This document shows, in pieces, positions 6,580 to 38,582 of a stretch of 64,000 nt of DNA (positions are counted from its first letter, which is position 1; the number at the start of each line of letters is the position of its first letter). Source of the stretch: Mesorhizobium australicum. Lineage in GTDB: Bacteria > Pseudomonadota > Alphaproteobacteria > Rhizobiales > Rhizobiaceae. The stretch lies in assembly GCF_900177325.1 (NCBI RefSeq), contig NZ_FXBL01000004.1, forward strand, positions 1,116,001 to 1,180,000, written 5' to 3'. The notes under the pieces were generated by a model that was not told where the DNA came from, did no database searches, and saw nothing but the letters and a program-made list of their open reading frames with translations. The position numbers and the translations under genes are program-made.

Positions 6580-6647
6580 CAGAGGCACGCGCCGGAATGC
6601 CATCCGGGTTCGGGCGCTTTTCAGGTCGCTCTCGAAGAGGACATGAC

Positions 6648-7070: not shown

Positions 7071-7152
7071 CCGGGTCGTGCACCCTGGTGCGGAACCGGA
7101 AGCTCTGGCGCGGGTTGGTCCGATGAAGGACGCCCGCCTTTAGGAGGCTGAC

Positions 7153-7404
7153 ATGACGAATGAAAAGATCAACATCACCCAAGCCGAACTGGCCCATGTG
7201 GGCGAGGGCGCCCTTGCCTACCTGCGCGAAATCGGCAGCGATGAGCTCACCGCGCGCTTCCCCGGCATGCCCGAACTGGAATCCGGGCTGAAGCTGTGGG
7301 CGCTGTTCGCGGCCAACGGCCAGCCGATCCTGCTGAGCGACGCCCGCGACACCGCGCTGGCCGGTGCGTTCCAGAACGACCTGACGCCTGTCAGTCTCCA
7401 CTGA
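7153..7404 (+). CDS. DUF1150 family protein, 83 aa
   Basis: This is a small acidic protein whose segments ELAHVGEGALAYLREI and LWALFAANGQPILLSDARDT are characteristic of DUF1150, an alphaproteobacterial family of unknown function commonly found just downstream of a small heat-shock gene. The ATG at 7153 follows a good AGGAGG at about six bases. The family often reads as a single compact alpha/beta domain. Cotranscription with hsp20 from the RpoH-like promoter is likely, so it may act in stress recovery; that is inference from position only. Confidence 0.88.
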   Translation: MTNEKINITQAELAHVGEGALAYLREIGSDELTARFPGMPELESGLKLWALFAANGQPILLSDARDTALAGAFQNDLTPVSLH

Positions 7405-7417
7405 CCGGAACGGCCTT

Positions 7418-11214: not shown

Positions 11215-11226
11215 CGAATTCAAGCG

Positions 11227-12478: not shown

Positions 12479-12757
12479 CCTGCGGTCGATACTCCGGCTT
12501 CGCTTGATTGTGCGCTGCCCAAACGCACATGGAAATAGGTCCGCTTTCCGACGGCGGAACTCTAAATGCCTCTTACATTCCAATATGGTTATTTTTGGAT
12601 GAAATGACAGGGGCCAGACTGCCCTAACGCAGTTGCGAGAGGCAAATTGTGCGCTGCGTCAACATGATGCGCCACCGGATCGGGGTGGCGACCCGCCGCG
12701 GGTTGTTCTAGAAACGCTCATCGACAGACGAGCGCAACCGCCCGGAGCGAGACCGAC

Positions 12758-23716: not shown

Positions 23717-24226
23717 TCAACCTGCCTTCGGCAGGTCGCGGCCGATCTCGCGGAGGCGACCCTGCAGCGTCAGCCTGTCGAGCGATTTCAGCGGCAGGGA
23801 GACGAAGAGCGAGATGCGGTTGTTGAGCATGCGGTAAGCGTCGGCGAAAGCGAGGTGCTTTTCTGCCTCGGTGCCCTCGACGGCGGCCGGGTCCGGCACG
23901 CCCCAATGCGCCGTCATCGGCTGGCCCGGCCACACCGGGCAGGCCTCGTTGGCGGCGTTGTCGCAGACGGTGAAAACGAAATCCATCACCGGCGCATCCG
24001 GCACGGCGAACTCCTCCCAGCTTTTGGAGCGGGCAAAGGATGTGTCGTGGTTGAGGCTCTTCAGCAGTTGCAGTGCATAGGGGTGCACCACGCCCTTCGG
24101 CTGCGAGCCGGCGGAGAAAGCGCGGAAACGGCCCTGGCCGACCCGGCTCAAGATCGCCTCGGCAAGGATCGACCGGGCCGAATTGCCGGTGCACAGGAAC
24201 AGTACGTTGTAGATCTGGTCGCTCAT
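23717..24226 (-). CDS. Arsenate reductase of the low-molecular-weight tyrosine phosphatase type
   Basis: This 169-residue LMW-PTP-fold protein has the CX5R loop LFLCTGNSARSILAEAIL near residue 12 and a conserved cysteine further on in FVFTVCDNAANEACPVWP, as in the thioredoxin-type ArsC family. The general-acid Asp is expected in HWGVPDPAAVEG. It lies between arsR and the aquaporin gene and is probably cotranscribed. Having both this fold and the glutaredoxin-type ArsC in one operon suggests use of two reductant pools. A role in arsenate reduction rather than protein dephosphorylation is inferred from the operon. Confidence 0.9.
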   Translation of the reverse strand: MSDQIYNVLFLCTGNSARSILAEAILSRVGQGRFRAFSAGSQPKGVVHPYALQLLKSLNHDTSFARSKSWEEFAVPDAPVMDFVFTVCDNAANEACPVWPGQPMTAHWGVPDPAAVEGTEAEKHLAFADAYRMLNNRISLFVSLPLKSLDRLTLQGRLREIGRDLPKAG

Positions 24227-24266
24227 CTTCTTGTCCTCCCGGCCCGGCTGCGCGGGCCAAAACCTC

Positions 24267-24599
24267 TCAGCAGCGGCACGTGACGGCGTCGATCACCGGG
24301 CGGCAGAGTTCCGGCCGGCCCTCGCAGCAGTCTTCCATCAGGTATGCAAGCAGGTCGCGGAAGCCGGTCATGTCGGCCGCATAGCGCACCGTCCGTCCGT
24401 CGCGCCCGGGGCTGATCAGCCCTGCCTGCGCGAGGACCTTGAGATGGGCCGAGACCGTGTTCTGCACCGCGCCGAGCCGTCCCGCGATCTCGCCGGCCGG
24501 CACGCCATCGGCGCCTGCGCGCACCAGCAGGCGGAAAATGTCGAGCCGGGTTTCCTGACCGAGGGCGGCAAGGGCGGCGAGGGATGATTTTTTGTCCAT
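24267..24599 (-). CDS. arsR: ArsR/SmtB family arsenic-responsive repressor
   Basis: The 110-residue winged-helix repressor has recognition helix region GAVQNTVSAHLKVLAQAGLI and wing GRDGRTVRYAAD. The classic ELCVCD metal site in the DNA-binding helix is absent. Instead cysteines cluster at the C-terminus: MEDCCEGRPELCRPVID and a final TCRC, likely the As(III) site. This C-terminal placement is seen in several independently evolved ArsR types. The start codon lies inside a perfect palindrome, the probable operator. It heads the ars operon. Confidence 0.93.
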   Translation of the reverse strand: MDKKSSLAALAALGQETRLDIFRLLVRAGADGVPAGEIAGRLGAVQNTVSAHLKVLAQAGLISPGRDGRTVRYAADMTGFRDLLAYLMEDCCEGRPELCRPVIDAVTCRC

Positions 24600-24622
24600 A
24601 TATCCAAGTATCCGGATATATG
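24597..24622. promoter_or_regulatory. Perfect inverted repeat at the arsR start, probable ArsR operator
   Basis: CATATATCC at 24597-24605 and GGATATATG at 24614-24622 form a perfect 9-bp inverted repeat with an eight-base spacer. It covers the arsR start codon and the bases before it. AT-rich imperfect palindromes of this size are typical ArsR/SmtB operators, and autorepression is the family rule. Confidence 0.65.
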
Positions 24623-24666
24623 AGCCACTACAAGCGCCATATGACAGGCATGTGACGGTGGGGGCG

Positions 24667-25296
24667 CTATACCTCGCGCGGAACCAGCGCGCCGGCCTCG
24701 CGATCGGATGCGCGGTCGCTGGCGAGCAGGCCGGCGGCGACGCCTTCGCGGTCCGCCGCGCTGCGGTTCTGGCTCATCTTGCGCTTGCCTTCGAGCCGGG
24801 TGATCGGCAGCCGCAAGCCGACGATGCCCTTGAGCTGCGCCCTGACGAACGGCTCCGGCGCATCTGCGACCGCCCAGGGTGCCGCGCGGCCGCCCTCGTG
24901 CAGGTCGGTCAGGCGGCGCACCACGTCGAGCAGGCGCGCATCGTCCTCGTAAAACTCCGCCGGCCCGTAGGCATGCACGGCGACATAGTTCCAGGTGGGC
25001 ACCACCTTGCCATGCTCGCGCTTGGTCTCGTACCAGGACGGCGTGACATAGGCGTCCGGCCCGGAGAAGATGACCATCGCCTCGCCGAGCGCCGGCAGCT
25101 TCCACTGCGGATTGGCCTTGGCGAGATGGCCGTGCAGCACAAACTGCCCATCGCCGCCCTCCTCGAGAAACAGCGGCAGGGGCGTCGCGACGAGCCCCTC
25201 CGATGTCGCCGTCACCAGCGTCGACAGGCGCGTGGCGCGGATGATGCGCGCGAGTTCGGCGGGATCGTCTTCGCGGAAGGCCGGAGGCACATACAT
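24667..25296 (-). CDS. paiB: PaiB family FMN-binding negative regulator
   Basis: This 209-residue split-barrel flavin-binding protein begins MYVPPAFREDDPAELARIIR, the usual PaiB start. Also typical are HLAKANPQWKLPALGEAMVI, PSWYETKREHGKVVPTWNYV and AQLKGIVGLRLPITRLEGKR. PaiB proteins are linked to control of degradative enzymes in Bacillus and may be FMN-dependent enzymes or protease-related regulators. The DMT transporter follows upstream within ten bases on the same strand, suggesting an operon. Confidence 0.92.
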   Translation of the reverse strand: MYVPPAFREDDPAELARIIRATRLSTLVTATSEGLVATPLPLFLEEGGDGQFVLHGHLAKANPQWKLPALGEAMVIFSGPDAYVTPSWYETKREHGKVVPTWNYVAVHAYGPAEFYEDDARLLDVVRRLTDLHEGGRAAPWAVADAPEPFVRAQLKGIVGLRLPITRLEGKRKMSQNRSAADREGVAAGLLASDRASDREAGALVPREV

Positions 25297-25306
25297 GGCG
25301 GGGCTC

Positions 25307-26170
25307 CTATCGTGCGAATCTGCGCGCGCCGGCGACGCAGGCGATGACGGCGACCGTAACGGCGAGCATCGCCGGCGTCACGCTTTCGCCAAGCAGCGTG
25401 GCGGCGAGCGCCAGGCCGAAGAAGGGCTGCAACAGCTGCAGCTGCCCGACCGCGGCGATGCCGCCCTGGGCGAGGCCGCGATACCAGAAGATGAAGCCGA
25501 TCAGCATCGAGAACAGCGAGACATAGGCAAGCCCGATCCAGGCCGGCGCCCCGATGCCGGCAAGGCTCGCAGGCATGGTGAGCGCGGCAAGCACCGCCAT
25601 GACCGGCAGGGACAGGACCAGCGCCCACGAGATGACCTGCCACCCGCCCAGCGTTCGCGACAGCCGCGCGCCCTCGGCATAGCCCAGCCCGCAGACGACC
25701 ACCGCCGCCAGCATCAGCGCGTCGCCGACCGGTGAGGCGGCCACGCCTTGCGACAGCGCGAAGCCGGCGACCAGCACGCTGCCGAGGATGGAGAACACCC
25801 AAAAGGCGGGCTTGGGCCGCTCGCCGCCGCGCAGCACGCCGAAGATGGCGGTCGCCAGCGGCAGGAGGCCGATGAAGACGATGGAGCGCGCCGAAGTGAT
25901 GTGCTGCAGCGCCAGCGCCGTCAGCAGCGGGAAGCCGACGACGACGCCGAGCGCCACGACCAGCAGCGAGACGATGTCGCGCCGCGCCGGCCGTCTTTCC
26001 CGGAAGGCGACGAGCAGGCCGAGCGCGAGAACGCCGGCAATCGCCGCGCGCGCGACCGTCAGGAACAGCGGGTCGAACTGCATGACGGCGACGCGGGTGG
26101 CCGGCAGCGAGCCCGAGAAGATCACGACGCCGATCAGCCCGTTGATCCACGCGATCGCCGTCCTGTCCAT
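25307..26170 (-). CDS. DMT superfamily (EamA) transporter
   Basis: This 287-residue protein has about ten membrane helices in two EamA repeats. The C-terminal repeat includes LIGFIFWYRGLAQGGIAAVG and QLQLLQPFFGLALAATLLGE, which is the conserved signature. I chose the ATG at 26170 for its GAGGTG ribosome-binding site; an upstream in-frame ATG at 26209 lacks one. It is ten bases upstream of paiB on the same strand. A LysR-type regulator (26296-27201) lies beyond, also leftward, 126 bases away, and may control the pair. The substrate is unknown. Confidence 0.9.
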   Translation of the reverse strand: MDRTAIAWINGLIGVVIFSGSLPATRVAVMQFDPLFLTVARAAIAGVLALGLLVAFRERRPARRDIVSLLVVALGVVVGFPLLTALALQHITSARSIVFIGLLPLATAIFGVLRGGERPKPAFWVFSILGSVLVAGFALSQGVAASPVGDALMLAAVVVCGLGYAEGARLSRTLGGWQVISWALVLSLPVMAVLAALTMPASLAGIGAPAWIGLAYVSLFSMLIGFIFWYRGLAQGGIAAVGQLQLLQPFFGLALAATLLGESVTPAMLAVTVAVIACVAGARRFAR

Positions 26171-26295
26171 TTTACACCTCGTCCCTGCGCCCCCGCGCGG
26201 CGCGGACAATGCGTCAGGACTGGACCAAGATATTGGGCCACGTGGCGGAGTATGGAGGGACAGCGCGGACAGTCTCGCCCGTCTGCCGGAGAGCC

Positions 26296-27201
26296 CTAGC
26301 CGCGCAACCCCCGCGACAGGAACGAATCGACCAGCGAATCGAACACGGCGCGGACGCGCGGCACGCGGGCGAGGTTTTCGTGCGTCACGATCCAGGTCTC
26401 GATCACCGTCACCTCGACCTCCGGCAGGATGCGCACGAGGTTCGGGTCGCTCTCGCCGACGGGGATCTGGGCGATGCCGATGCCGACGCCGGCGCGGGTG
26501 GCGGCGATCTGCGCCGGGTGGCTGTCGGTGCGCAGCACGAAGCGGTCGCGCGAGAGCGTGCCGCCGAGCCGTTCGGCCAGGATCGCCGCGATGGCGAGGT
26601 CGGCCCGGTTGCGGTCGGGGCCGATGATGTCGTGGTCCGCGATCTCCGACACGTCGGCGGGCGCGCCGCGCCGCGCGATATAGGCGTGCGAGGCGAACAG
26701 GCCGAGCGGGATCGCGGCGACCTTGCGCGCCACCAGCGCCTCCTGCTTCGGCGTCACGGTCCTCACCGCGACATCGACCTCCTGCGCCAGCAGGTCGGCC
26801 GGCGCGTTGGACAGCGACAGCTCGATGCGGATGCCGGGATGCTCGATGCGCAGCCGGGCGAGCATCGCCGGGATGACCTCGATGCCCATGAATTCCGGCA
26901 CGCTGACGCGCACGATGCCGGCGACCTCGCCGCCCGGGGCGGACGCCTGCCGCACGAACAGGTCAGACGCCATCGCCATCGCGCGGGCGGAATCGCGCAG
27001 CGTTTCGGCGGTCTCGGTCGGCGTCAGGCCGTTCACCGAGCGGGTGAAGAGCACCGTGCCGAGCTCGCGCTCCAGCGCCTCGATCCGGTTGCGCACCGTC
27101 GGGTGCGACAGGCCGAGCCGGCGCGCGGCGGCCGACAGGCTGCCTTCCTCGAGCACGGCGAGGAAGATGCGCTGGTCGTCCCAGGAGATCGGCAGGCTCA
27201 T
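26296..27201 (-). CDS. LysR family transcriptional regulator
   Basis: In this 301-residue protein the N-terminal winged helix-turn-helix is complete: SLSAAARRLGLSHPTVRNRI near residue 17, followed by ERELGTVLFTRSVNGL. The periplasmic-binding-like effector domain fills the rest. It is divergent from the epimerase-like gene at 27298, with about 96 bases of AT-rich DNA between the two starts (TTACTAGCAGATGTTAGATA region). This is the normal geometry for a LysR protein controlling its divergent neighbour, which is inferred as the target. Confidence 0.94.
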   Translation of the reverse strand: MSLPISWDDQRIFLAVLEEGSLSAAARRLGLSHPTVRNRIEALERELGTVLFTRSVNGLTPTETAETLRDSARAMAMASDLFVRQASAPGGEVAGIVRVSVPEFMGIEVIPAMLARLRIEHPGIRIELSLSNAPADLLAQEVDVAVRTVTPKQEALVARKVAAIPLGLFASHAYIARRGAPADVSEIADHDIIGPDRNRADLAIAAILAERLGGTLSRDRFVLRTDSHPAQIAATRAGVGIGIAQIPVGESDPNLVRILPEVEVTVIETWIVTHENLARVPRVRAVFDSLVDSFLSRGLRG

Positions 27202-27297
27202 AAAAATATTACTAGCAGATGTTAGATAATTTGCAATTTTCTTTCATGTAGCGAAAGCCCACTTTCTACCCATCGTGATGAACCGAGGAACAGAGTG

Positions 27298-28287
27298 ATG
27301 GACGGACAGAGGACGGCGCAGGTGCTGGGCGCGACGGGCGGGATCGGCGGCGGCATCGCCGCAGCGCTGGTGAGGCATGGCTGGCGGGTGCGCGGGCTGG
27401 CGCGCAACCTGGAGGCCGCCGGCAGGGCGGGGCCGGCGAAGGTCGAGTGGATCGAGGGCGACGCGATGCGGCGCGACGATGTGGTGCGGGCGGCAACGGG
27501 CGCGGAGATCATCGTGCACGCGGTGAACCCGCCGAACTATGCCAACTGGGACAAGCTGGTTCTGCCGATGATCGACAACACGATCGCGGCGGCGAAGGCG
27601 GTGGGCGCGCGCGTGGTGCTGCCGGGGACGATCTACAATTTCGACCCGGCCGAGACGCCGCTGCTCGGCGAGCATTCGCCGCAGCGGCCGAAGAGCCGCA
27701 AGGGCGCGATCCGCGTGGCGATGGAAAGGCGGCTGGAGGAGGCAGCACCCCAGGTACCGTCGCTGATCCTGCGGGCGGGCGATTTCTTCGGCCCCGGGGT
27801 GCGGTCGAGCTGGTTCGCGCAGGCGATGGTGGCGCCGGGCAAGCCGCTGCGCCGCATCGTCAACCCGGCCAGAGGGCCGGGGCACAGCTGGGCCTATCTT
27901 CCCGACCTCGCCGAAACCTTCGCCCGGCTGGTCGAGGCGCCGTCGCGCCTGCGGCCCTTCGAGCGGGTGCAGTTCGAGGGGCTCTACGACGACACCGGCG
28001 ACAGGATGGTGGAGGCGATCCGCCGCGCCGCCGGCCGCCGGCTCCCGGTCTACCGCTTCCCGTGGTGGCTGATGCGGCTCGCGGCCCCCTTCGGCGGCCT
28101 GCCGCGCGAGGCGGCCGAGATCGCGCCCCACTGGCGCCACCCCTCGCGGCTGGACAATGCCCGCCTCGTCGAACTGATCGGGCCCGAGCCGGCGACGCCG
28201 CTGGACCTTGCCGTGCGGGCGAGCCTCGCCGACATGGGCTGCCTCGCAGACGCCGCGCAGCCGGCGCTGCGCGCAGCCTCGGCCTGA
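27298..28287 (+). CDS. NAD(P)-dependent epimerase/dehydratase-like (extended SDR) protein
   Basis: This 329-residue Rossmann protein has the nucleotide-binding motif GATGGIGGGIAAALVRHGWR at the N-terminus and AEIIVHAVNPPNYANWDKLV as the typical post-strand loop. The catalytic Tyr-x-x-x-Lys is not clear, so it may be an atypical SDR or a NAD(P)H-binding sensor rather than an epimerase. A GTG at 27295 is in frame, but the ATG at 27298 sits seven bases from GAGGAA and is better. It is divergent from the LysR gene, its probable regulator. Confidence 0.85.
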   Translation: MDGQRTAQVLGATGGIGGGIAAALVRHGWRVRGLARNLEAAGRAGPAKVEWIEGDAMRRDDVVRAATGAEIIVHAVNPPNYANWDKLVLPMIDNTIAAAKAVGARVVLPGTIYNFDPAETPLLGEHSPQRPKSRKGAIRVAMERRLEEAAPQVPSLILRAGDFFGPGVRSSWFAQAMVAPGKPLRRIVNPARGPGHSWAYLPDLAETFARLVEAPSRLRPFERVQFEGLYDDTGDRMVEAIRRAAGRRLPVYRFPWWLMRLAAPFGGLPREAAEIAPHWRHPSRLDNARLVELIGPEPATPLDLAVRASLADMGCLADAAQPALRAASA

Positions 28288-28356
28288 GCTTTGGTTGTAT
28301 CCAAATGGATATAACGATGCGCGTGCAAAAACCCGCGCAAACATGCGGCCGTCGGG

Positions 28357-29202
28357 TCAGGATGTGTCCGGCGCCAGCGCCTCGCGGGCGAAATAGTTCA
28401 TGTCGCCGAGCGTCGAGTGAATGTCGAGGCGGCGCGGTCCGGGCTTGATCTGCCCGGGCGGACGCCCGGCGCGCAACGGCCATTGGCGCACGTGGCGCAA
28501 GGCCGGCCCTGCCACAGCAGCGGCGGCCTGCCTGACGCGCGCCTGGGCGGTGGCCCGCGCATCCGCCGCGGCGCGGGCCCGCCAGCGGGCGAAGCGCAGC
28601 GCCTGGCCCGGCACGTCGTCGAGGGCCGCGCGCAGGGCCGCGATGCGGCGGAAGAGCCGGCGGGCATCGATCGGGTCTCCCGGACGGCAAAGCGGGCGCA
28701 CAGGCGCGGGCGGCGGCGCGCCGGGGGCGAGAGAGAGGATGCGCGGCACGTCGCGCGCGGCGCGCGGCCGTGGCGGGCCGGGCCGCGTCAACGGATCGAG
28801 GAGCGGAAAGACGTAGGCACGCGGGCGGGGTGCTGCGCCGCGGAAGGCGGCGACGCTCATGCCGTAGGGCAGCACGACGCCGGTGCCGGCGCCCGCGCGC
28901 ACGAAGAGCGAGTTGCGCCGCGCCGCCAGCCGCGGCCGCCCCGGCCCGACCTCCACCACCACGTCCCGCGCCGCCACAACGATCAGCCGCCGCACGGCGG
29001 ATTCGGTGGGCAGCAGGAGCCTGAGCACCGCGCGGTAGGCGCGACGGGGGAGGGTGGCCCTGCCTTCCGGCAACCCGGCGCCCTGCGCCGCGCCCCGGGC
29101 GGAGGTCGCCGGAAGGGCGAGCCCGACCATGGTCATCAGCACCTCCAGCACCCGCCACAGCCGCTCCCGGTTCGTCTCGACCACCGCTTCCCACTCGATC
29201 AC
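28357..29202 (-). CDS. Hypothetical protein, 281 aa, Arg/Ala/Pro-rich
   Basis: I recognise no domain. The protein is very rich in Arg, Ala and Pro. The N-terminus MIEWEAVVETNRERLWRVLE is helical, then LTMVG-like hydrophobic residues follow. A middle segment, RLIVVAARDVVVEVGPGRPR, could be a beta-hairpin. The C-terminal part has many arginines and ends in DMNYFAREALAPDTS. Frames on both strands are open here because of the high GC. This one has the most protein-like start (an ATG behind GGAGGG) and similar proteins are carried by other rhizobia as I recall. It marks the last core-like gene before the AT-rich island. Confidence 0.55.
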   Translation of the reverse strand: MIEWEAVVETNRERLWRVLEVLMTMVGLALPATSARGAAQGAGLPEGRATLPRRAYRAVLRLLLPTESAVRRLIVVAARDVVVEVGPGRPRLAARRNSLFVRAGAGTGVVLPYGMSVAAFRGAAPRPRAYVFPLLDPLTRPGPPRPRAARDVPRILSLAPGAPPPAPVRPLCRPGDPIDARRLFRRIAALRAALDDVPGQALRFARWRARAAADARATAQARVRQAAAAVAGPALRHVRQWPLRAGRPPGQIKPGPRRLDIHSTLGDMNYFAREALAPDTS

Positions 29203-29351
29203 CGCGCCCTCCTTTCGTTGAGGCGTGGGGAGTGTGCGGGAGGTGGGGAGGGGGGTGGATAGATTTTTTTGTGCGCAGAATTCATTGATAACATGATGCG
29301 GCCCGCGTCACCTTCGGGCCGGTAACGGACTGGCAGCTTTCAGATGGCAAA

Positions 29352-29379
29352 TTGAATTCGCTAGCGCTAAAAGTATACC
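29352..29379 (+). promoter_or_regulatory. Putative promoter of the DGQHR-methyltransferase operon, with a palindrome in the spacer
   Basis: TTGAAT (29352-29357) and TATACC (29374-29379) are spaced by 16 bases, resembling a housekeeping promoter 22 bases before the first gene of the island. The spacer holds the perfect palindrome TAGCGCTA at 29362-29369, a candidate operator. The surrounding gap (29203-29401) shows no other feature. Confidence 0.5.
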
Positions 29380-29401
29380 ATAGCAGTTGGGGAATTTCTG
29401 T

Positions 29402-30925
29402 ATGGCGGGAAAAGTTCAGGCAATACGTTTCAAGCAATGGCTCCCGGAATGGGATGATTTTGACTTCGACCCCAGGCAACACAGGCGTAAGCCCGACGAG
29501 CATATCCTGCTCTTCTCTATGCCAGCCGTCCAGTTGCGAGCTCTGAGCGGTGTCTATCGGCGAACTCGCGATCATGACGGCGGCGAAGGTCTTCAGCGTC
29601 TTCATGATCCCAAGCGGTCAGCGGCAATTCGCGACTTCGTTCGCTTCGGTCACCCCTATAGCAGCCTTCCAGTTGCGGCTCGCGATGCAACCGCTGCCAA
29701 CATGCGCAAACCTGGATGGCTGCCAACCGCCATTGTCGTCAACATTCTCACAGCGAACGACGAGCGTCGTGGCCGAAAGGTCGCTGAATCTGATCTTATC
29801 TCGATAAACGATGATGAGGGAAATCGCGCCGAGTTGAAGCTACCCTATTTCGACCGTCTAGAGCGATGGATGCCATCGGATCTGGAGCCTTTCGAAGTAA
29901 TCGACGGACAACATCGCCTATGGGCCTTCGATGAAGCGTTGAAGGACGGCAGCCTGCCAGGCGACTTCGAACTCCCTGTCGTCGCCTTCACAGGTCTTGA
30001 TGTGGGCTGGCAAGCTTATCTATTCTGGTCGATCAATGTCTCGCCTAAGCGCATCAATCCAAGCCATGCCTTTGACCTTTTCCCGTTGTTGCGGTCAGCT
30101 GAATGGCTTGAGACTCTGTCGGACTTGCGCATCTATCGCCAAGCGAGAGCGCAGGAACTGACGGAAATCCTCTACACTCAGCCAGAAAGCCCATTCTACA
30201 ATCGTATCAACATGCTGGGCGAGTCGTCGAGAACCGCCCCTCCCGGTGCTGGCGTCACCCAAGCTGGCTGGGTTCAGGCAATCACCACAAGCTTTCTCTC
30301 AACCGGTAGTGGGCGGTCGGCCAGAGGTCTTTTCGCCGCTGAAATCACGCCTGTTACAGGACCGCTCCCCTGGTCACGCCCCCAGCAGGCAGCCTTCCTT
30401 ATCGCGCTGTGGGCCGCGATTCGACAGGCGATTCTTCAGGCCAGACATGACTGGATTGAGCAGCTTACTCGCCCAGATGGGCAAGAAACACTCGACCATG
30501 ATCCAACTGGTGCATTTACCGGCAACCGAACAATGCTCAATCAGGAGCAAGGAGTGCGTGGTGTCCTAGCTGTTGCCAACGATGTTTTCTTCTCACTTGC
30601 CCAGCTCAAGCCGCAGCTCTTCGAATTTGAAACCAGGATCGTAGCAGGCACAGCAACCACTCCTGAAGATGTGTCGGTTGCGCTGGAAGAACTGGAAGGT
30701 TCGGAACTCCTCGAGCGGATCAAGGATTTCGCGGCGGGGATTGTAGGTTTTGATTGGAGATCTGCCGATGCACCGGGGCTGAGTGATGACCAACGCATGC
30801 TTAAGCGTGCGTTCCGTGGCAGCAGTGGGTATGTGGCGCTGCGCGAGCAGCTTTTTAGACACCTTGCGGCGGGGCCCAAGGAGATTGCCGAAGTCGCCAA
30901 TGAAGCTCTGAAGCGGCTACCCTGA
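29402..30925 (+). CDS. DGQHR-motif protein, DndB-like
   Basis: This 507-residue protein carries the motif FEVIDGQHRLWAFDEALKDG with Asp168, the signature of the DGQHR family. That family includes DndB, the regulator of the dnd phosphorothioate genes, and distantly resembles the ParB-type nuclease fold. The helix FWSINVSPKRINPSHAFDLF that follows is also typical. The C-terminal half (about 250-507) is helical and unrecognised. An in-frame TTG lies five codons upstream, but the ATG at 29402 is eight bases from GGGGA. GC is clearly lower than in the core genome. The next gene starts one base after its stop. No dndA/C/D/E genes are nearby, so it is an orphan. Confidence 0.85.
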   Translation: MAGKVQAIRFKQWLPEWDDFDFDPRQHRRKPDEHILLFSMPAVQLRALSGVYRRTRDHDGGEGLQRLHDPKRSAAIRDFVRFGHPYSSLPVAARDATAANMRKPGWLPTAIVVNILTANDERRGRKVAESDLISINDDEGNRAELKLPYFDRLERWMPSDLEPFEVIDGQHRLWAFDEALKDGSLPGDFELPVVAFTGLDVGWQAYLFWSINVSPKRINPSHAFDLFPLLRSAEWLETLSDLRIYRQARAQELTEILYTQPESPFYNRINMLGESSRTAPPGAGVTQAGWVQAITTSFLSTGSGRSARGLFAAEITPVTGPLPWSRPQQAAFLIALWAAIRQAILQARHDWIEQLTRPDGQETLDHDPTGAFTGNRTMLNQEQGVRGVLAVANDVFFSLAQLKPQLFEFETRIVAGTATTPEDVSVALEELEGSELLERIKDFAAGIVGFDWRSADAPGLSDDQRMLKRAFRGSSGYVALREQLFRHLAAGPKEIAEVANEALKRLP

Positions 30926-30926
30926 C

Positions 30927-32192
30927 ATGACTGCCCAATTGAATGCTACTGACAAGGCGATTCTGGCGCTTGCCGATCCTAATGTTGTCATCAATGCTCT
31001 AAGCCGATTCCGCACTCAGGCTTGCCCGCCTTGGCTCCCAGCCACACACCCTTATCCGGATGGCGCTCCTCCTAAAGGAGAGGCTGCTTTTGCTGCTGTC
31101 TCTGGCGCCGATATGCTTGAGATCATCGCTGTCCGAGGTCCGCTCCATGCAATTGATGGCTGGAGTTATCTGGGCAGGGCCTTTTCATCCCTGTTGAGTG
31201 GTCAGGCCCATGCCGCCCGCCATTTGTCCTACTATGCGGAACTGCGGGCAGCGCTCTCGATCCTCGCAAGCTCGGGAATCGGTGTTTTCAATCGGCGAAA
31301 CGCCGTTGTTGATGCTTCAGGTGTGGTCCATATCATGTCTACACAGACCACCCACGACATGGCATGGCTCGCGCTCGCCGAATGGTCGGTAAGTTCCACG
31401 AGTTTGGAGTGGCTGGCCAAGCCAATACAGATTGCAGGAGCATCCTTGCTTGATCCCTTCCGGGAGTTTTTTCCCGGCGAGACATCGACTGCAGCGGGCG
31501 AACTGATGGCCGAATGGGGGTTCGACCTCCAGCAGGGAACAACAGACCGAGATCAGCGCAACTGGTCGAGCTATCAGCCAACGGCACTTGGCCCGATCCT
31601 AACAACGCCGGCGCAGGACTTCGCATTCTTGAAGATGTTCTGGAACGCGTGTAGACCAAATGGAGTCGAACTCGAGCGGCATTTGCTGCGTATTCTCCTC
31701 GAAAGAGAGGCACGATCCCATGGATCAGAGCTCTACGAATACTCACACAGCTATGCTCGATTGCAGGAAAGTGCTAAGGCTGTTGTTTCGTTCGACTTCT
31801 TGAAACGGATTGACGATCCTATCGATCATGAATTTCTCGTCCAGCTGGCAAGCCGTTCGCTGCCTGCACCACCCTATGCCATGATGTGTCGTGCAGGCCT
31901 TCTCCTCAAATTGGCGACAGGCATGGCTGAAGCAAACCTGCGCGCTGCAGGTATTCAGCCGGTAGATCATTTTAATAACTGGTGGCAGGAATTCGGTGTG
32001 CATCACGGACTGTGGCCTCCGGGTCTACCGCCGCTAACCACTGCTGATCTCTGGGAAGATATAAATGTTGCGCTCGAAGAGAGCGCTGCAGCACCCACCG
32101 ACTATCGACACGAGTGGGTTTCGACACTAGCAGGCAATGCCATGCGAATGTGTGAGACAGAACGAGTCGCCTTGTGGGGGCTCTTCCAGTGA
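30927..32192 (+). CDS. Unknown protein of the DGQHR-methyltransferase operon, 421 aa
   Basis: I do not recognise this protein. It is soluble, mostly helical and without signal peptide or membrane helix. The clearest feature is the helix pair HAARHLSYYAELRAALSILA followed by SSGIGVFNRRNAVV (about residues 95-130). This recalls the Arg/Tyr-rich helices of YaaC- and HEPN-like proteins; that is resemblance only. A second charged segment is ERHLLRILLEREARSHGSEL. No nuclease, kinase or NTPase motif is seen. It starts one base after the DGQHR gene and overlaps the methyltransferase by four bases, so all three are translated together. It is the candidate effector of the system. Confidence 0.75.
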   Translation: MTAQLNATDKAILALADPNVVINALSRFRTQACPPWLPATHPYPDGAPPKGEAAFAAVSGADMLEIIAVRGPLHAIDGWSYLGRAFSSLLSGQAHAARHLSYYAELRAALSILASSGIGVFNRRNAVVDASGVVHIMSTQTTHDMAWLALAEWSVSSTSLEWLAKPIQIAGASLLDPFREFFPGETSTAAGELMAEWGFDLQQGTTDRDQRNWSSYQPTALGPILTTPAQDFAFLKMFWNACRPNGVELERHLLRILLEREARSHGSELYEYSHSYARLQESAKAVVSFDFLKRIDDPIDHEFLVQLASRSLPAPPYAMMCRAGLLLKLATGMAEANLRAAGIQPVDHFNNWWQEFGVHHGLWPPGLPPLTTADLWEDINVALEESAAAPTDYRHEWVSTLAGNAMRMCETERVALWGLFQ

Positions 32193-33331
32193 AATACATG
32201 GGGTCGAAACGCGCGATGCTCGGCAACGGGCTCGGCGAAGCGCTCGGGCGCTCGCTAGCTGAGGCCGAACGCGTCCTCGATCTCTTCACGGGATCCGCAG
32301 CCGTAGCTTGGTATGTAGCCGAACAGCACGGAAAAGAAGTCCTCGCGAGCGATCTTCAGACGTACTCGACGATCCTCGCGGCCTCCGTCATAGAACGCAC
32401 AAAGCCGATTGCCGACCGGGACTGGGTTGAGAGCTGGATGCGCCGCGCCCGTGGTCGTGTCTCGGCACATAGGCAATGGAGGGATATCAAGGAACTCCAG
32501 ACCTCACTGGACAAGATTCCAGTCTCCGAGGCTGCATCGAATGCACGTTCCATCGACTTTGGTACGAAATTCCCAGTCAGCAAAGCTTATGGAGGCTATT
32601 ACTTTTCGCCTTGGCAGGCGGCATGGATCGACGCGCTGCGCGCAAGCATGCCCGAAGCAGAAGACCTAAAAAGTGTCGGGCTTGCTGCTCTTATTCAAGC
32701 TGCGAGTCGTTGTGCTGCCTCGCCAGGACACACTGCTCAGCCTTTCAAGCCCAACGACACCGCAGGCCGTTTCCTCATCGAAGCGTGGCAACGAGACCTT
32801 CCAGCCATTGTTCGTACACGCATCGACGATATCGCTCCTCGCAAGGCCGGGAAGAAAGGCAGAGCTTACTGCATGAGTGCCAACGAACTCGCTGAAGCGG
32901 CACGTCCCGGAGATCTTGTCTTTCTGGATCCTCCTTATTCCGGGGTACATTACAGTCGCTTCTATCATGTCCTAGAGAGTGTCGCCCGCGGCGAAGTGGG
33001 CGAAGTCTCAGGATCGGGGCGTTACCCTGAAAAGAGCGAACGCCCTATCTCCGACTTTTCTATGCTGACTACCTCTCGGCGAGCGTTTGATGACCTACTT
33101 GCCATCTTGGCTCGGAAGCATGCCAACGTCATCATCACTTTCCCAGCAGGAAAGGCATCTAATGGCCTCAGTGGAGACGATGTGAAGGCTCTTGCCACCG
33201 ACCATTTTCGGATAGAGGAAGCTAAGGTCTCTTCGCGTTTTTCGACATTGGGGGGCGACCTAAAGCATCGAGCAGCGCGCCAGGACGCTGATGAACTGAT
33301 CCTAACGTTATCGACACGTGCTCTTTATTGA
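32189..33331 (+). CDS. D12-class DNA adenine methyltransferase
   Basis: This 380-residue protein of the Dam/D12 class methylates adenine N6. It starts KYMGSKRAMLGNGL (with GTG at 32189), as D12 enzymes do. Motif I is VLDLFTGSAAVAWYVAEQ (Asp31) and the catalytic motif is LVFLDPPYSGVHYSRFYHVL (DPPY at 247-250). The long insert between (about 75-235) is the target recognition region. An in-frame GTG at 32174 is possible, but the GTG at 32189 overlaps the previous stop as GTGA and has GGGGG eight bases before. No cognate restriction endonuclease is visible. The sequence specificity is unknown. Confidence 0.92.
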   Translation: MKYMGSKRAMLGNGLGEALGRSLAEAERVLDLFTGSAAVAWYVAEQHGKEVLASDLQTYSTILAASVIERTKPIADRDWVESWMRRARGRVSAHRQWRDIKELQTSLDKIPVSEAASNARSIDFGTKFPVSKAYGGYYFSPWQAAWIDALRASMPEAEDLKSVGLAALIQAASRCAASPGHTAQPFKPNDTAGRFLIEAWQRDLPAIVRTRIDDIAPRKAGKKGRAYCMSANELAEAARPGDLVFLDPPYSGVHYSRFYHVLESVARGEVGEVSGSGRYPEKSERPISDFSMLTTSRRAFDDLLAILARKHANVIITFPAGKASNGLSGDDVKALATDHFRIEEAKVSSRFSTLGGDLKHRAARQDADELILTLSTRALY

Positions 33332-33369
33332 GGGGTAGCTTGAAGGGCGGCCCGACTTGTGGCCGGTCA

Positions 33370-33486
33370 ATCATACGATGTTGCTGCCTTTCGCTCGCAG
33401 CTCTACGATCCGCACCGGTGTGTCGAGCTGATCATCGGGCCGATGTCGGTGCAGCCGCCGAGTTTCTGCAGCACCCCGGTCGAGTC
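33370..33486 (-). pseudogene. Frameshifted remnant of the 3' end of a maeB/phosphotransacetylase gene
   Basis: The minus strand here reads STGVLQKLGGCTDIGPM in one frame and DTPVRIVELRAKGSNIV in another. These match STKMLQELGGCTVIGPM and NKPVQIVGLSAKDSDIV at the C-terminus of the intact maeB at 36067-38352. The nucleotide match runs over about 115 bases with one small indel causing the frameshift. Nothing upstream of it resembles the rest of maeB. It lies just after the DNA methyltransferase stop, at the right edge of the AT-rich island, and no other gene is seen in 33332-33551. Confidence 0.75.
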
Positions 33487-33551
33487 TACCCGCAGGACAA
33501 TGCACCGGCGAAACCCCCTGATCAGCCGCTGCAGCCGCCCCACCACCCCCC

Positions 33552-34907
33552 TCACCCAATCCTGTTCAACGCCACCCTCTCCAGAAACGCCCCATACCCG
33601 CCGACGATGCCGTTGCCGATGGGGATGCCGCGGGCGAGGACGCGGAGGGCGGTGAGGTAGCGGCTTTCGAGGCTGATGGAGTGGAATTTTCGCTGGTCGA
33701 CCCAGAGGGTGGCGAGCTCCACATGGACGCCGAAGACGCCCTGATAGTCGCGCCGCGTCTTGACGACCTCGATCACGCTCGGCCGGTAGCCGGTGGCGGA
33801 CAGGGCGGCCAGCAGCTCGTCGCGGCTGGCGAGCTTCGCCTCGATCTCGTTGAAGCGCGGGAAGATCGCGGCGAGGACGGAGGCCCTGGTGGGGAAGGTG
33901 ATCTTCTCGCTGGGCGCAAAGGCGCTGAACTCGTCGAAGGCCTCGATGATCGGCTTGACCTTCAGGCCCTCGCCCCTGAACTTGATGTTGTCCCGCTTGC
34001 CGTGCACGAACAGGTAGACGTCGCGGTTCTTCTCCTCGGCGCGGGCGACCTTGTCCTTGAGGCGACCGAAGCTGAGGGGGATGTCGACGGCATCGTCGGC
34101 CGGCCAGAAGGCGCGCCACTCCCATGTCGTTTTGGAGCGCACATAAGCGGGGCGCGCGGCGGCCGATTTCTTCTTCGCGGGCTTCGCCGGCTTCGGGACG
34201 TCGCCGGCATCGAGCAGATAGGTGCTGAGCCGCTGGCGCATGACGACGAGGGCGTCGGCGACGCCGCGCCCGACCAGGTCCATCCGGCGCAGCGCATCGA
34301 CGCGGCTGTCGTGGCCCGGCAGCCACCTGTCCGGATAGGCGCGTTCGAACACGGCGCCGATCATGCCGCAGGCATGGAGCAGCGAGATCAGCGCGGCCTG
34401 TTCCGGGTCGGGCAGGTCGTCGGTCTCGATCAGCGCCATCAGCGGGTCGCGGATGCCGTCGACTTCGGCGGCGGCATGGCCGACGATCTTCGACTGGACG
34501 AAGTCCCACAGGATATTCTGCGCGCGGACGTGAACGGCGCCCTTGGCGGCGAGGGAGGCGAGCGTCTCGGACCGCAATTCGCCGACGCGGCCGACAACCT
34601 CGTTGAGCATCACGGCCATCGGGGCCCTGCCGCCGAGGCGGTCGAGGATGGTCAGCGCGAGCGGCGGGGCGGCGTCGTGCGGATCGCTCGGCCGGACGGC
34701 GAAGACGGTGTCGAGGTCGCTGTCGATCCTGTCCTGGAACGACAGGTCCATCAGATGCGCCCCCGCCAGGGCGAAGTCCGCATCCGACCAGGCGGCCAGC
34801 GATCCGGCGGCCTTCGGCACCGCCAGGCTCAAAAGCGTGAAGGCCTCGGCGATCGAAAAGCCGTCCGGAGACGTGGACGAGAGGGGGCGCACGAGGGTCA
34901 CCGCCAT
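33552..34907 (-). CDS. GPP34-like domain fused to an unrecognised C-terminal domain, 451 aa
   Basis: The N-terminal part (about residues 15-200) has the helical pattern of the GPP34/GOLPH3 family: DADFALAGAHLMDLSFQDRI, the LTILDRLGGRAPMAV helix and DDLPDPEQAALISLLHACGM. A Lys/Pro/Ala linker (KPAKPAKKKSAAARP) near residue 240 leads to a beta-rich C-terminal domain (about 255-450). There DVYLFVHGKRDNIKFRGEGL and KVKPIIEAFDE weakly recall CYTH/triphosphate-tunnel proteins. Both assignments are by eye. The ATG at 34907 lies inside the end of the chromate transporter gene downstream of it in the operon (ten-base overlap), so the two are coupled. Confidence 0.7.
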   Translation of the reverse strand: MAVTLVRPLSSTSPDGFSIAEAFTLLSLAVPKAAGSLAAWSDADFALAGAHLMDLSFQDRIDSDLDTVFAVRPSDPHDAAPPLALTILDRLGGRAPMAVMLNEVVGRVGELRSETLASLAAKGAVHVRAQNILWDFVQSKIVGHAAAEVDGIRDPLMALIETDDLPDPEQAALISLLHACGMIGAVFERAYPDRWLPGHDSRVDALRRMDLVGRGVADALVVMRQRLSTYLLDAGDVPKPAKPAKKKSAAARPAYVRSKTTWEWRAFWPADDAVDIPLSFGRLKDKVARAEEKNRDVYLFVHGKRDNIKFRGEGLKVKPIIEAFDEFSAFAPSEKITFPTRASVLAAIFPRFNEIEAKLASRDELLAALSATGYRPSVIEVVKTRRDYQGVFGVHVELATLWVDQRKFHSISLESRYLTALRVLARGIPIGNGIVGGYGAFLERVALNRIG

Positions 34908-35428
34908 GCGGGGAGGAGATAGGACAGGGCGCCGCCCGCCGCGCCGAGGCCGAGGATAACGGCGATGGGGCTGGTCCTCGTGCGGACGATCAGGAGATAG
35001 GACAGGACCGCGAGCGCAACGGTGATCGGCCCGGTCAGCGCGGTCTTGGCCACGGCATAGATGCCGGAGCACATCAGGCCGATCGAGATCGGTTCGAGGC
35101 CGTTCTGCACCGCGCGCCGCCAGGGCGTCTCGCCGATCCGGTTCCAGACCCGGCCGACCCACAGGCACAGCACGCTGGACGGGACGAAGAAGGCGAGGCC
35201 CGCGACGACAGCGGCGAGCGCGCCGCCGATCTGGGCGCCGAGCAGCACCACCATCGTCATGTTGGGGCCCGGCGCAAGCTGGCCGATGCCGTAGGTCTTG
35301 ATGAAGACCTGTGGGCCGATGCCGAACTGCGCCGAAAGCACGTCCTGCATCTCGTGCAGCACGGCTGTCCCGCCGCCCACCGCGAACACGGACAACAGGA
35401 CGAAGGTGAAAGCGAGCTTAATCAGCAT
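34898..35428 (-). CDS. Chromate transporter, ChrA half-protein
   Basis: This 176-residue protein is one half of a split CHR transporter. It contains FAVGGGTAVLHEMQDVL and the loop YGIGQLAPGPNMTMVVLLGA, the conserved GxGxxxPGPN pattern of CHR domains. Five membrane helices are likely. It overlaps the upstream half-gene by 11 bases and the downstream GPP34-like gene by ten. The two halves should form a heterodimer that effluxes chromate or another oxyanion; the substrate is inferred from family only. Confidence 0.9.
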   Translation of the reverse strand: MLIKLAFTFVLLSVFAVGGGTAVLHEMQDVLSAQFGIGPQVFIKTYGIGQLAPGPNMTMVVLLGAQIGGALAAVVAGLAFFVPSSVLCLWVGRVWNRIGETPWRRAVQNGLEPISIGLMCSGIYAVAKTALTGPITVALAVLSYLLIVRTRTSPIAVILGLGAAGGALSYLLPAWR

Positions 35429-35993
35429 CCGGCCGCTTCGCTTTCGCCGGGCGGTTGAGGAAGATCGCGATGGGGGCCACGACCATCAGCACCTGCGGCA
35501 GGGAGAGGCCGGCAAGGCTCATCAGCACGAAGGTGAGGAGCGCGATGGCGAGATATTTCAGCTCGAGGATGCGGCCCTCGGCCAGCCGGACGGTGACCGA
35601 GGACAGCAAGCCGACGGCGGCCGCCGCCACGCCGACGAGGAAGTAGCCGGCGACGGCGCTGTCGGGATTGCTGAGATAGAGCATGCCGACGGCGACGACG
35701 AAAAGGCAGCCGGGCAGCAGCAGGGCGGCCGCGGCGACGAAGGCGCCCACCGTGCCGCGCAGCCGGTCGCCCGCCAGAACCGCGATGTTGACGGCGTTGA
35801 GCCCGGGCATCGTCTGGCTGATGGCGAGCATGGCCTTGAACTCGTCAAGGCTGAACCAGCGCTTCTTCTCGGTGAGGAGGATCTTCTGATAGGCGACGAC
35901 GCCGCCGCCGAAGCTCGCCGCGCCGACGATGAGGAACTCCCGGAAGATCTCGCCGAGGAGTGCGGCTTTCCGTTCAACGACCAGTTCCGTCAT
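35418..35993 (-). CDS. Chromate transporter, ChrA half-protein
   Basis: This is the 191-residue first half of the split CHR transporter. The family signature is FLIVGAASFGGGVVAYQKIL followed by LAISQTMPGLNAVNIAVLAG. It has about six membrane helices. It comes first in the operon and overlaps the second half by 11 bases. The charged N-terminus with VVERKAALLGEIFREFLIV is normal for the family. The maeB gene lies 74 bases away on the same strand, but no promoter was identified between them. Confidence 0.9.
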   Translation of the reverse strand: MTELVVERKAALLGEIFREFLIVGAASFGGGVVAYQKILLTEKKRWFSLDEFKAMLAISQTMPGLNAVNIAVLAGDRLRGTVGAFVAAAALLLPGCLFVVAVGMLYLSNPDSAVAGYFLVGVAAAAVGLLSSVTVRLAEGRILELKYLAIALLTFVLMSLAGLSLPQVLMVVAPIAIFLNRPAKAKRPDAD

Positions 35994-36066
35994 CGACCTC
36001 GCCCGGCTTGGTTGCCCGACCCGTCCAAAAAGCCCTCTGCCGGCAGCCTTGCGGGCTGCCGGGTCC

Positions 36067-38352
36067 TCACGCGCCTGCGTTATACGCCGCGATCGCGGCC
36101 ATGTTGACGATGTCAGAGTCCTTCGCCGACAGGCCGACGATCTGCACCGGCTTGTTGAGGCCGACGATCATCGGCCCGATGACGGTGCAGCCGCCGAGTT
36201 CCTGCAGCATCTTGGTCGAGATCGAGGCGGAGTGGAAGGCGGGCATGACGAGCACGTTGGCTGGGCCGGAGAGGCGGCAGAAGGGGTAGCGCTGCTGCAT
36301 CAGGCGATGGTCGAGCGCGACGTCGGCGGCCATCTCGCCGTCATATTCGAAGTCGACGCGGCGCTTGTCGAGAATCTTCACCGCCTCCTGCACGCGCTCG
36401 GAGCGCTCGCCGGCGGGGTGGCCGAAGGTGGAGTAGGCGAGCATGGCGACGCGGGGTTCATAACCCATCCTGCGCGCGAAGCCGGCGGTCTCCTCGGCGA
36501 TGTCGGCGAGCTCCTCGGCGTTCGGCATGTCGTGCACGGCGGTGTCGGCGACGATGACGGTGCGGCCGCGGCAGAGCGCGAGCGACACGCCGACGACGCG
36601 GTGGCCGGGCTTGGCGTCGATGACGCGGCGCACGTCTTCCAACGCGGTCGAATAGTTGCGGGTGACGCCGGTCACCATCGCGTCCGCGTCGCCCAGCGCC
36701 ACCATGCAGGCGGCGAAATGGTTGCGGTCGTTGTTGATCAGCCGCTGGCAGTCGCGCAGCAGGAAGCCCTTCCGCTGCATCTTCTCGTAGAGATGGTCGG
36801 CATAGATGGCGTTGCGGCGCGAGAGCCGCGCATTGATGACCTCGATGCCCTGCTTGTTCAGGTCGACGCCGGCATTGCGCGCATTCTCGCGCACGACCTC
36901 CTCGCGGCCGACAAGGATGGCGGTGCCGAGCTTCTGATTCACGTAGGAGACGGCGGCGCGCATCACCTGCTCCTCCTCGCCCTCGGCAAAGACGGTGCGC
37001 TTGGGCTGGCGGCGCACGCGGTCGTAGATGCGCTGCAGGGTGGACGCGATTGGGTCGCGGCGGGCCGACAGCTCCTGCGCGTAGCGGTCGAAGTCGAGGA
37101 TCGGCCGGCCGGCGACGCCCGAGTCGATCGCCGCGCGGGCGACCGCGACGGGGATGGCGGAGATCAGGCGCGGGTCGAAGGGGACGGGGATGATGTAGTT
37201 CGGGCCGAACTTCGGCCGGTTGCCCTGATATGCGGCCGCGACGTCGTCGGGCACGTCCTCGCGGGCAAGCGCCGCGAGTGCGCGCGCGGCGGCGATCTTC
37301 ATCGGCTCGTTGATGGTGGTCGCGCGGACATCGAGCGCGCCGCGGAAGATGTAGGGGAAGCCGAGCACGTTGTTGACCTGGTTCGGATAGTCCGAGCGGC
37401 CGGTGGCCATGATGGCGTCGGTGCGGATCTCGGCGACCTCCTCCGGCGTGATCTCGGGGTCCGGATTGGCCATGGCGAAGATGATCGGGTTCTTGGCCAT
37501 GGATTTCACCATCGCCGGCGTCAGTGCGCCCTTGGCGGAGAGGCCGAAGAAGATGTCGGCGCCATCGAGCGCGTCGGCGAGCGAGCGCGCGTCGGTCTTC
37601 GCCGCATGCGCCGACTTCCACTGGTTCATGCCCTCGGTGCGGCCCTGGTAGACCACGCCCTTGGTGTCGCAGAGAATGACGTTCTCCGGCGCGAAGCCGA
37701 GCGACTTGACCAGCTCGATGCAGGCGATGCCGGCCGCACCCGCGCCGTTGCAGACGAGCTTGGCCGTCTTCATGTCGCGGCCGGTGATCTCCAGCGCGTT
37801 GATCAAGCCGGCGGTGGCGATGATGGCCGTGCCGTGCTGGTCGTCGTGGAAGACCGGAATGTTCATCAGCTCGCGCAGGCGTTGCTCGATGATGAAGCAC
37901 TCCGGCGCCTTGATGTCTTCCAGGTTGATGCCGCCGAAGGACGGGCCAAGCAGCTTGACGCAGTTGATGAACTCGTCGGCGTCCTCGGTCTCGACCTCGA
38001 GATCGATGGAATCGACGTCGGCGAAGCGCTTGAACAGCACCGCCTTGCCTTCCATGACGGGCTTGGAGGCAAGCGCGCCGAGATTGCCGAGGCCGAGGAT
38101 CGCGGTGCCGTTGGAGATGACGGCGACCATGTTGCCGCGCGTGGTGTAGTCGTAGGCGCGGGACGGGTCCTCGGCGATCGCCTTCACGGGAACGGCGACG
38201 CCGGGCGAATAGGCGAGCGAGAGATCCCGCTGCGTTGCCATCGGCTTGGTCGGCGAGATTTCCAGCTTGCCGGGCCGTCCGGTCGCGTGGAAGTCGAGCG
38301 CCTCCTGCGCGGAGACCTGCGGCCCGCTCTCGTTCCTGTCCCTCGATGCCAT
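36067..38352 (-). CDS. maeB: NADP-dependent malic enzyme with C-terminal phosphotransacetylase domain
   Basis: This 761-residue bifunctional-type malic enzyme converts malate to pyruvate with CO2 and NADPH. The malic N-terminal domain (about 20-165) includes SPGVAVPVKAIAEDPSRAYD. The NAD-binding domain contains LVCNGAGAAGIACIELVKSL. The C-terminal PTA-like domain (about 430-761) includes PANVLVMPAFHSASISTKML and GGCTVIGPMIVGLNKPVQIV. In most rhizobial MaeB the PTA domain regulates rather than catalyses. It is divergent from mutS across about 170 bases that hold an inverted repeat. A broken copy of its 3' end lies at 33370-33486. Confidence 0.97.
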   Translation of the reverse strand: MASRDRNESGPQVSAQEALDFHATGRPGKLEISPTKPMATQRDLSLAYSPGVAVPVKAIAEDPSRAYDYTTRGNMVAVISNGTAILGLGNLGALASKPVMEGKAVLFKRFADVDSIDLEVETEDADEFINCVKLLGPSFGGINLEDIKAPECFIIEQRLRELMNIPVFHDDQHGTAIIATAGLINALEITGRDMKTAKLVCNGAGAAGIACIELVKSLGFAPENVILCDTKGVVYQGRTEGMNQWKSAHAAKTDARSLADALDGADIFFGLSAKGALTPAMVKSMAKNPIIFAMANPDPEITPEEVAEIRTDAIMATGRSDYPNQVNNVLGFPYIFRGALDVRATTINEPMKIAAARALAALAREDVPDDVAAAYQGNRPKFGPNYIIPVPFDPRLISAIPVAVARAAIDSGVAGRPILDFDRYAQELSARRDPIASTLQRIYDRVRRQPKRTVFAEGEEEQVMRAAVSYVNQKLGTAILVGREEVVRENARNAGVDLNKQGIEVINARLSRRNAIYADHLYEKMQRKGFLLRDCQRLINNDRNHFAACMVALGDADAMVTGVTRNYSTALEDVRRVIDAKPGHRVVGVSLALCRGRTVIVADTAVHDMPNAEELADIAEETAGFARRMGYEPRVAMLAYSTFGHPAGERSERVQEAVKILDKRRVDFEYDGEMAADVALDHRLMQQRYPFCRLSGPANVLVMPAFHSASISTKMLQELGGCTVIGPMIVGLNKPVQIVGLSAKDSDIVNMAAIAAYNAGA

Positions 38353-38450
38353 GCGTGTTTCCTGCCCGGTCGCGTTTCTTTTGTGGAGCGTTCGGGATTA
38401 AGGCTACACTTCGCCTTCGTAAAGCGACAAGGACGGTCTGGAGAAAAAAG

Positions 38451-38582
38451 TCCCCCTCCCCCTTGTGGGGAGGGGTTAGGGGGTGGGGGTTATCGGCCCG
38501 TCCCCAGACATGGAAGCCGTGATGGAGTGGCAGACGGATCATACCCCCACCCCTAACCCCTCCCCACAAGGGGGAGGGGGAG
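38451..38582. repeat. Pair of 40-nt inverted repeats (intergenic palindromic element), one arm read into mutS
   Basis: The segment 38451-38490 (starting TCCCCCTCCCCCTTGTGGGG) and the segment 38543-38582 (ending ACAAGGGGGAGGGGGA) are reverse complements over about 40 nt with a single length difference in one G run, 52 bases apart. Each unit is itself C/G-run rich and partly palindromic. The second arm reads in the mutS frame as [13 protein letters not shown], a peptide often produced when this kind of dispersed rhizobial repeat falls inside a gene. Confidence 0.85.

Follow-up and report, generated by a model that had tools for sequence, protein, structure and literature searches.

Restriction-modification (R-M) systems are usually described as a DNA methylase and an endonuclease that share one site. 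An arrangement in which HEPN genes of the MAE_28990 type lie "in operon with a ParB nuclease and DNA methylase genes" is recorded in Table 1 of Anantharaman et al. 2013 (PMC3710099, drawn on here in part), and these ParB-HEPN(MAE_28990)-DNA methylase operons are the closest precedent for the locus described here. The locus lies in a 64,000-nucleotide stretch of the Mesorhizobium australicum genome (contig NZ_FXBL01000004.1, positions 1,116,001 to 1,180,000), hereafter called the window, and comprises genes for a DGQHR-domain protein, a protein of an unnamed family (MID), and a D12-class DNA adenine methyltransferase. Since the gene order is that of the known operons and the families differ throughout, the unit is regarded as a variant of the ParB-HEPN-methylase kind. 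It looks like an undescribed cousin of R-M, and no paper naming a DGQHR-MID-methylase unit was found in passages, as distinct from whole texts, of the open-licence literature.

Organization and Co-inheritance of the Unit

Inspection of the window revealed three open genes, all on the + strand, encoding the DGQHR protein (29402-30925, 507 residues), MID (30927-32192, 421 residues), and the methylase (32189-33331, 380 residues, GTG start). The first junction, TGA-C-ATG, leaves 1 base between the genes, and at the second MID and the methylase share a 4-base overlap, GTGA. These junctions had been described in an initial annotation of this DNA and are borne out. The same annotation placed a promoter in front of the operon, for which no support emerged: a sigma-70 consensus scan of 29150-33700, with other promoter types outside its scope, returned no sigma-70-like site before 29402 and three matches in all, each within a gene, against 1.7 expected by chance.

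Searches with MID or DGQHR gathered 20 distinct loci, the window's included, and in all 20 the DGQHR gene was found upstream of MID with an adenine methylase gene adjacent. Duplicate retrievals of a contig (L002, L003, L028, L035-L037, L039-L046, L048, and L051) were left out of this count, as were three more Zymomonas plasmid records, each of 30,952 bases, with at least 99% identity in all three genes. The three genes almost certainly form one functional unit. The contrary outcome named in the initial annotation, homologues that are scattered and never together, did not appear in this co-occurrence search.

At least 157 relatives were returned by a protein search with MID. The family is rare: among genomes sampled from the class, the order, and the phylum it was present in 2 of 385, 1 of 397, and 2 of 398, respectively, in draws that overlap and each of which counts the window's genome. 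The search with DGQHR across the 385 class genomes gave two close matches (E < 1e-100), both in MID-bearing genomes. Several genomes matched by MID and by DGQHR also agreed in the length of their longest contig (Brucella gallinifaecis, 1468018; Granulibacter, 2729888; Cypionkella, 3078615; Xanthobacter, 423769; Acetobacter, 38411).

Relatives of the unit were placed in prophages and on plasmids. Ten flanking proteins from nine loci all matched phage families (tail tape-measure, tail, portal, integrase, and Zot-like), and one relative lies on a 756-kb Rhizobium plasmid beside transposition genes. No match for the window's MID was present in 50,697 phage records. Other genes were noticed near two of the units. 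On the Zymomonas plasmid (L005), a DarT gene (PADLOC E 8e-70) and a macro-domain gene occupy 10992-12742, ∼2 kb downstream of the unit, and in a further locus (L007) a gene ∼1.9 kb before the unit (3613-4557) encodes an HNH protein that resembles type II restriction enzymes (PADLOC E 3.7e-23).

Exchange of the Methylase

The window's methylase matched PF02086 with 56.8 bits (cut-off 22) and PADLOC MTase_II with an E value of 4.7e-22, and on this family match it would serve as the site-specific DNA methyltransferase of a type II R-M system. The DPPY motif, which has a catalytic role, lies at 32927-32938 on the + strand. Among the 20 loci, 11 have a long D12 enzyme of this type, 7 a Dam-type D12 enzyme (2 of them convergent with the unit), and 2 an MT-A70 enzyme (both convergent); types were assigned by similarity and, for 11 loci, checked against Pfam.

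Mapping of methylase type onto trees of the two partners gave six changes on the MID tree (20 rows) and five on the DGQHR tree (18 rows). The latter leaves out two loci with a split DGQHR gene (L010 and L052), and the former keeps the longer MID piece of L010 as it stands. Well supported branches on both trees force at least four changes for the long D12 label and at least four for the Dam label. The clearest swap is seen in locus L008, where DGQHR and MID match their counterparts in the window at 77 and 58% identity, yet the methylase is of the Dam type. That the methylase is swapped while the pair persists identifies DGQHR-MID as the core of the unit and the methylase as an exchangeable cassette.

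A Candidate Methylation Mark in Zymomonas

Zymomonas mobilis is used industrially to make ethanol and is readily cultured. Its relative of the unit lies on a 30,952-base plasmid recorded for strains CP4 and B-12526 and once labeled ZM4. On the B-12526 plasmid, the unit with its Dam-type methylase is accompanied by a single type I R-M system, and no other DNA methylase appears in the plasmid's gene table, which may be incomplete. The record labeled ZM4 (NC_013788.1, L005) is 100% identical to the CP4-group plasmids over the three genes; its strain label may be wrong.

In the parts of PMC8088579 used here, CP3, CP4, and B-12526 fall in one group, each group appears to share plasmids, ZM4 is described with four plasmids, and the CP3 assembly is left as 22 linear contigs. 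The N6-methyladenine (m6A) motifs given there for CP3 besides GANTC are RGATCY (98.6%) and CRAAN6CTC (100%), and the methylome given for ZM4 in the corresponding part of PMC8432527 comprises only CAGN4CTG, GAAGN7TCC, and GANTC. CRAAN6CTC, being bipartite, can be matched to the type I system and RGATCY, in turn, to the Dam-type methylase. RGATCY is accordingly named as a candidate methylation mark in Z. mobilis and is rather likely to be that of the Dam-type methylase, presuming that CP3 carries the plasmid; a chromosomal methylase is possible. The candidate concerns the enzyme of the Zymomonas relative, not the long D12 enzyme of the window.

The DGQHR Protein

The first protein of the operon matched TIGR03187 (DGQHR) with 70.3 bits (cut-off 58.85). 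A region of approximately residues 32-216 (29495-30049, + strand) is a ParB/Srx-like domain, with the ParB-like nucleotide-binding fold, and within it all five residues of the D168-G-Q-H-R172 motif (29903-29917, + strand) are invariant in 65 of 65 aligned proteins. The protein is therefore placed in the wider DGQHR/ParB group, as a member co-inherited with MID and the methylase. A Foldseek search against PDB gave nothing significant, a PDB sequence profile search gave nothing better than E 0.61, and no nuclease family scored above cut-off in Pfam, NCBIfam, PADLOC, or PHROGs.

The initial annotation had proposed a DndB-like regulator of phosphorothioation, which was not sustained. PF14072 (DndB) scored 25.6 bits, below its cut-off of 29.1, and the DndB equivalog TIGR03233 scored 11.2 bits against a cut-off of 328; in the island that carries the operon (29261-33547), to which this search was confined, only these three genes were recognized, with no dnd (dndACDE) or dpd gene among them, and the Dnd partners are missing there. 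An identity as DpdB was likewise rejected (NF041060, 20.3 bits against a cut-off of 300; PADLOC DpdB, 19.1 bits), as was membership in GmrSD/SspE, there being no PF03235 (GmrSD_N, DUF262) match up to E 1 in this protein and no HNH match in DGQHR or MID. When the DGQHR protein was compared with five GmrSD_N proteins using hhalign, the DGQHR and DG-QR motifs aligned at a probability of 2.8, which is not significant; the resemblance to GmrSD_N is confined to the fold. A 701-residue relative, P0238, has a Schlafen AlbA_2 domain (34.5 bits, cut-off 25.3) fused to a DGQHR-type protein, a possible case of effector coupling.

MID as a Possible HEPN Protein

No family in Pfam, NCBIfam, PADLOC, or PHROGs matched MID above cut-off, and a Pfam scan of 75 relatives gave scattered weak matches only. 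The structure was predicted with a pLDDT of 93.9, and a HEPN-like fold is suspected from it. Conserved polar residues were found in sequence order: E105, acidic and in the second long helix (31239-31241), is E in 86 of 95 aligned rows; H143, a histidine after a beta insert (31353-31355), is invariant (95 of 95); and in the R211-N-x-x-S-Y216 motif (31557-31574), with which helix 203-216 ends, R211, S215, and Y216 are present in 95 and N212 in 93 of 95 rows (all + strand). The weak fold matches and the order of the motifs suggest that MID may be a divergent HEPN ribonuclease, with R211-N-x-x-S-Y216 as the proposed counterpart of the HEPN Rx4-6H motif, Y replacing H. The Rx4-6H motif itself is absent from MID, which has R211-x4-Y216 and no histidine there, and HEPN families such as AbiV lack it as well (PMC3710099, in part).

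Alignment of MID with HEPN families by hhalign gave a probability of 0.1 in an underpowered comparison, since two true HEPN families used as a positive control also failed and an unrelated alignment scored 0.2-0.3. Foldseek against PDB and BFVD returned nothing significant, and in a PDB sequence profile search the 4 best of 10 matches (best E 0.0009) were designed helical proteins, taken to reflect composition. A NurA identity was set aside, as 2ygk (E 1.8) and NF041033 (E 0.038) represent one archaeal family found twice, in weak, short matches. PF18737, the HEPN model of the MAE_28990 type, had no match in MID or its 75 relatives and none in the window's own genome, where no control gave a signal either; PF18728 (AbiV) gave one weak match below cut-off in 100 genomes, too little for comparison.

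The Island and Its Insertion Site

The operon occupies a low-GC (guanine plus cytosine) island of 4.3 kb (29261-33547, no strand), with edges set by alignment to one same-genus sister genome (G781). Its GC fraction of 0.561 compares with 0.658 for the whole window, 0.71 for the left flank (24001-29260), and 0.675 for the right (33548-38800), and the lowest value among 598 island-sized windows, also 0.561, was that starting at 29201. In the sister genome, both flanks are kept at 91-94% identity with ∼3.2 kb of different DNA between them, including a gene for a 632-residue ORC-CDC6-like ATPase (L027 7558-9456; PF24389, 45 bits). The site is thus variable among relatives, in the manner of cargo islands. 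The ATPase gene has weak PADLOC matches and is perhaps another defense gene.

At the island border, a decayed fragment (33390-33484, no strand) resembles the 3′ end of an ORF at 36067-38352, which we take to encode malic enzyme, with 80% identity over 100 columns against 36122-36220. Both the GC below that of the core genome and the border with a broken gene copy had been noted in the initial annotation and are confirmed by these values. A stretch of the sister genome's cargo (L027 9609-9693) matches the same ORF end (window 36074-36159, 81%), and the border fragment may therefore predate the operon. Its presence both in the island and in unrelated cargo hints at an older, reused insertion border. 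Elsewhere in the window, a tRNA-Ser gene (59445-59534) is followed by ∼4 kb of lower GC (0.555-0.605 from 60001), and another island may begin there (59445-64000).

Discussion

We favor, by a slight balance of probability, a module that resembles R-M and would serve in phage defense or addiction, with the methylase supplying a self mark, DGQHR a switch, and MID a HEPN effector. The host-marking system with the middle protein as effector that the initial annotation envisaged thus survives as the best reading, with its genes co-inherited in all 20 loci, and loses its DndB-like regulator. The adenine methylase, judged by its family, would mark host DNA at its own site. DGQHR, whose ParB/Srx fold is expected to bind nucleoside triphosphate, would scan DNA and, by analogy with SspE and ParB, switch state at unmarked sites, thereby licensing MID. 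If MID is a HEPN ribonuclease of divergent type, whose alternative active site (E105, H143, R211-N212, and Y216) resembles that of AbiV, its toxic action would stop the growth of infected cells or cut invading RNA. DGQHR and MID are the constant core, probably as alarm and weapon, and the methylase is a replaceable cassette. A narrower form, possible but doubtful, is a methylation-licensed suicide system that has no DNA endonuclease, in which DGQHR senses missing m6A and frees a new family of HEPN ribonuclease, with methylases of the long D12, Dam-type, and MT-A70 classes as exchangeable self-marks.

Since the methylase class shifts repeatedly while its partners stay, the partners either read methylation generically or have their site preference set elsewhere, and either would be informative. 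For DGQHR proteins that belong to neither Dnd nor Dpd, the module also offers a role that can be tested, and, were MID a HEPN ribonuclease, it would tie the marking of self DNA directly to the cutting of RNA.

Several observations weigh against such a module. Two of the 20 loci have a DGQHR gene split in two (L010 4228-9122 and L052 2836-4142), and in the first of these an insertion-sequence-like ORF (5962-7524), presumably an IS66-like transposase, cuts the start of MID. Distant DGQHR-type matches occur without MID in 6 of 385 class genomes (E 3e-7 to 3e-4) and on Acinetobacter and Leptospira plasmids (24-30% identity), neighborhoods not having been read in either set. On the two trees, methylase type clusters barely more than at random, since 28 and 36 of 200 shuffles, respectively, gave values as low; this fits swapping but also means that class says little about ancestry. 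The ZM4 methylome, in the part of PMC8432527 used, holds no mark that needs a Dam-type methylase, though one plasmid record is labeled ZM4.

An ordinary type II-like R-M system, in which MID or the C-terminal half of DGQHR is a new DNA endonuclease that cuts unmethylated DNA and the methylase protects, is unlikely. In its favor are an m6A methylase co-inherited in 20 of 20 loci and labeled MTase_II by PADLOC, the invariant H, D, and R residues of MID, and the weak NurA hint for that protein. It sits poorly with the lack of any nuclease family above cut-off for either protein in the four collections scanned, and exchange of methylase class around a closely kept core is unexpected if one site is shared, unless the sites are alike. 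The initial view that the locus does not fit Dnd is upheld by the failure of the DndB models and the absence of recognizable dndACDE genes from the island.

A toxin-antitoxin-like addiction module of prophages and plasmids is improbable. In it, MID would be the toxin, DGQHR would act as antitoxin or regulator, the methylase would provide the immunity mark, and phage defense would be secondary. Modules of this sort often contain HEPN toxins (PMC3710099, in part) and the unit occurs on 31- and 756-kb plasmids, the latter beside transposition genes, and beside phage genes, but it is also chromosomal (the window and L001), with no mobility gene noticed beside it, although no systematic search for one was made, and toxin-antitoxin pairs normally need no DNA methylase. 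Very improbable is an epigenetic unit in which DGQHR regulates its own operon as a DndB-like protein, the methylase modifies host or phage DNA, and MID is a modification accessory, for although binding of ATP and GTP is reported for a DndB-like protein and DndB is described as a repressor (PMC12704722 and PMC10853773, in part), the DndB-specific models fail, the invariant polar residues of MID look catalytic, and three methylase types serve the same core.

Comparison with known systems sharpens what is distinctive. Like Dnd and Dpd, the unit sets a DGQHR/ParB-fold protein beside DNA-modification genes, but it does not reach the equivalog models and its modifier is an adenine methylase. SspE and GmrSD/BrxU differ in having GmrSD_N and HNH domains, absent here, where the effector would be a separate protein, and are kept as a mechanistic analogy. 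Type II R-M likewise couples a D12 methylase to a restriction-like core; here no restriction endonuclease is recognizable and the methylase is interchangeable across classes. MID shares with AbiV/AF0298-type HEPN proteins a basic residue ending helix 3, the lack of the motif histidine, and a conserved H in the insert between helices 2 and 3 (PMC3710099, in part) but differs in its 421 residues and large inserts, against a 155-position AbiV model with no significant sequence match.

The MAE_28990-type operons come nearest. PF18737 had matches in 8 of 200 phylum genomes, 5 of them over cut-off, and in all five of those loci a GmrSD_N (ParB-fold) gene directly precedes the HEPN gene; a C5 methylase gene adjoins one of the five, other neighbors not having been scanned. 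In both kinds, a ParB-fold gene with a DG-Q-R-type motif stands directly upstream of a gene for a helical effector, sometimes with a DNA methylase. The parts differ: GmrSD_N (PF03235) proteins of 349-362 residues and PF18737 HEPN proteins of 206-229 residues with Rx4H in all five, as against a DGQHR protein of 507 residues, a MID of 421 residues with Rx4Y and no Pfam match, and an m6A methylase at every one of the 20 loci. New here are the methylase as the replaceable part, a MID that looks HEPN-like, and a candidate mark from Zymomonas methylomes, and the parallel with the ParB-HEPN gene order provides an independent reason to favor a HEPN identity for MID.

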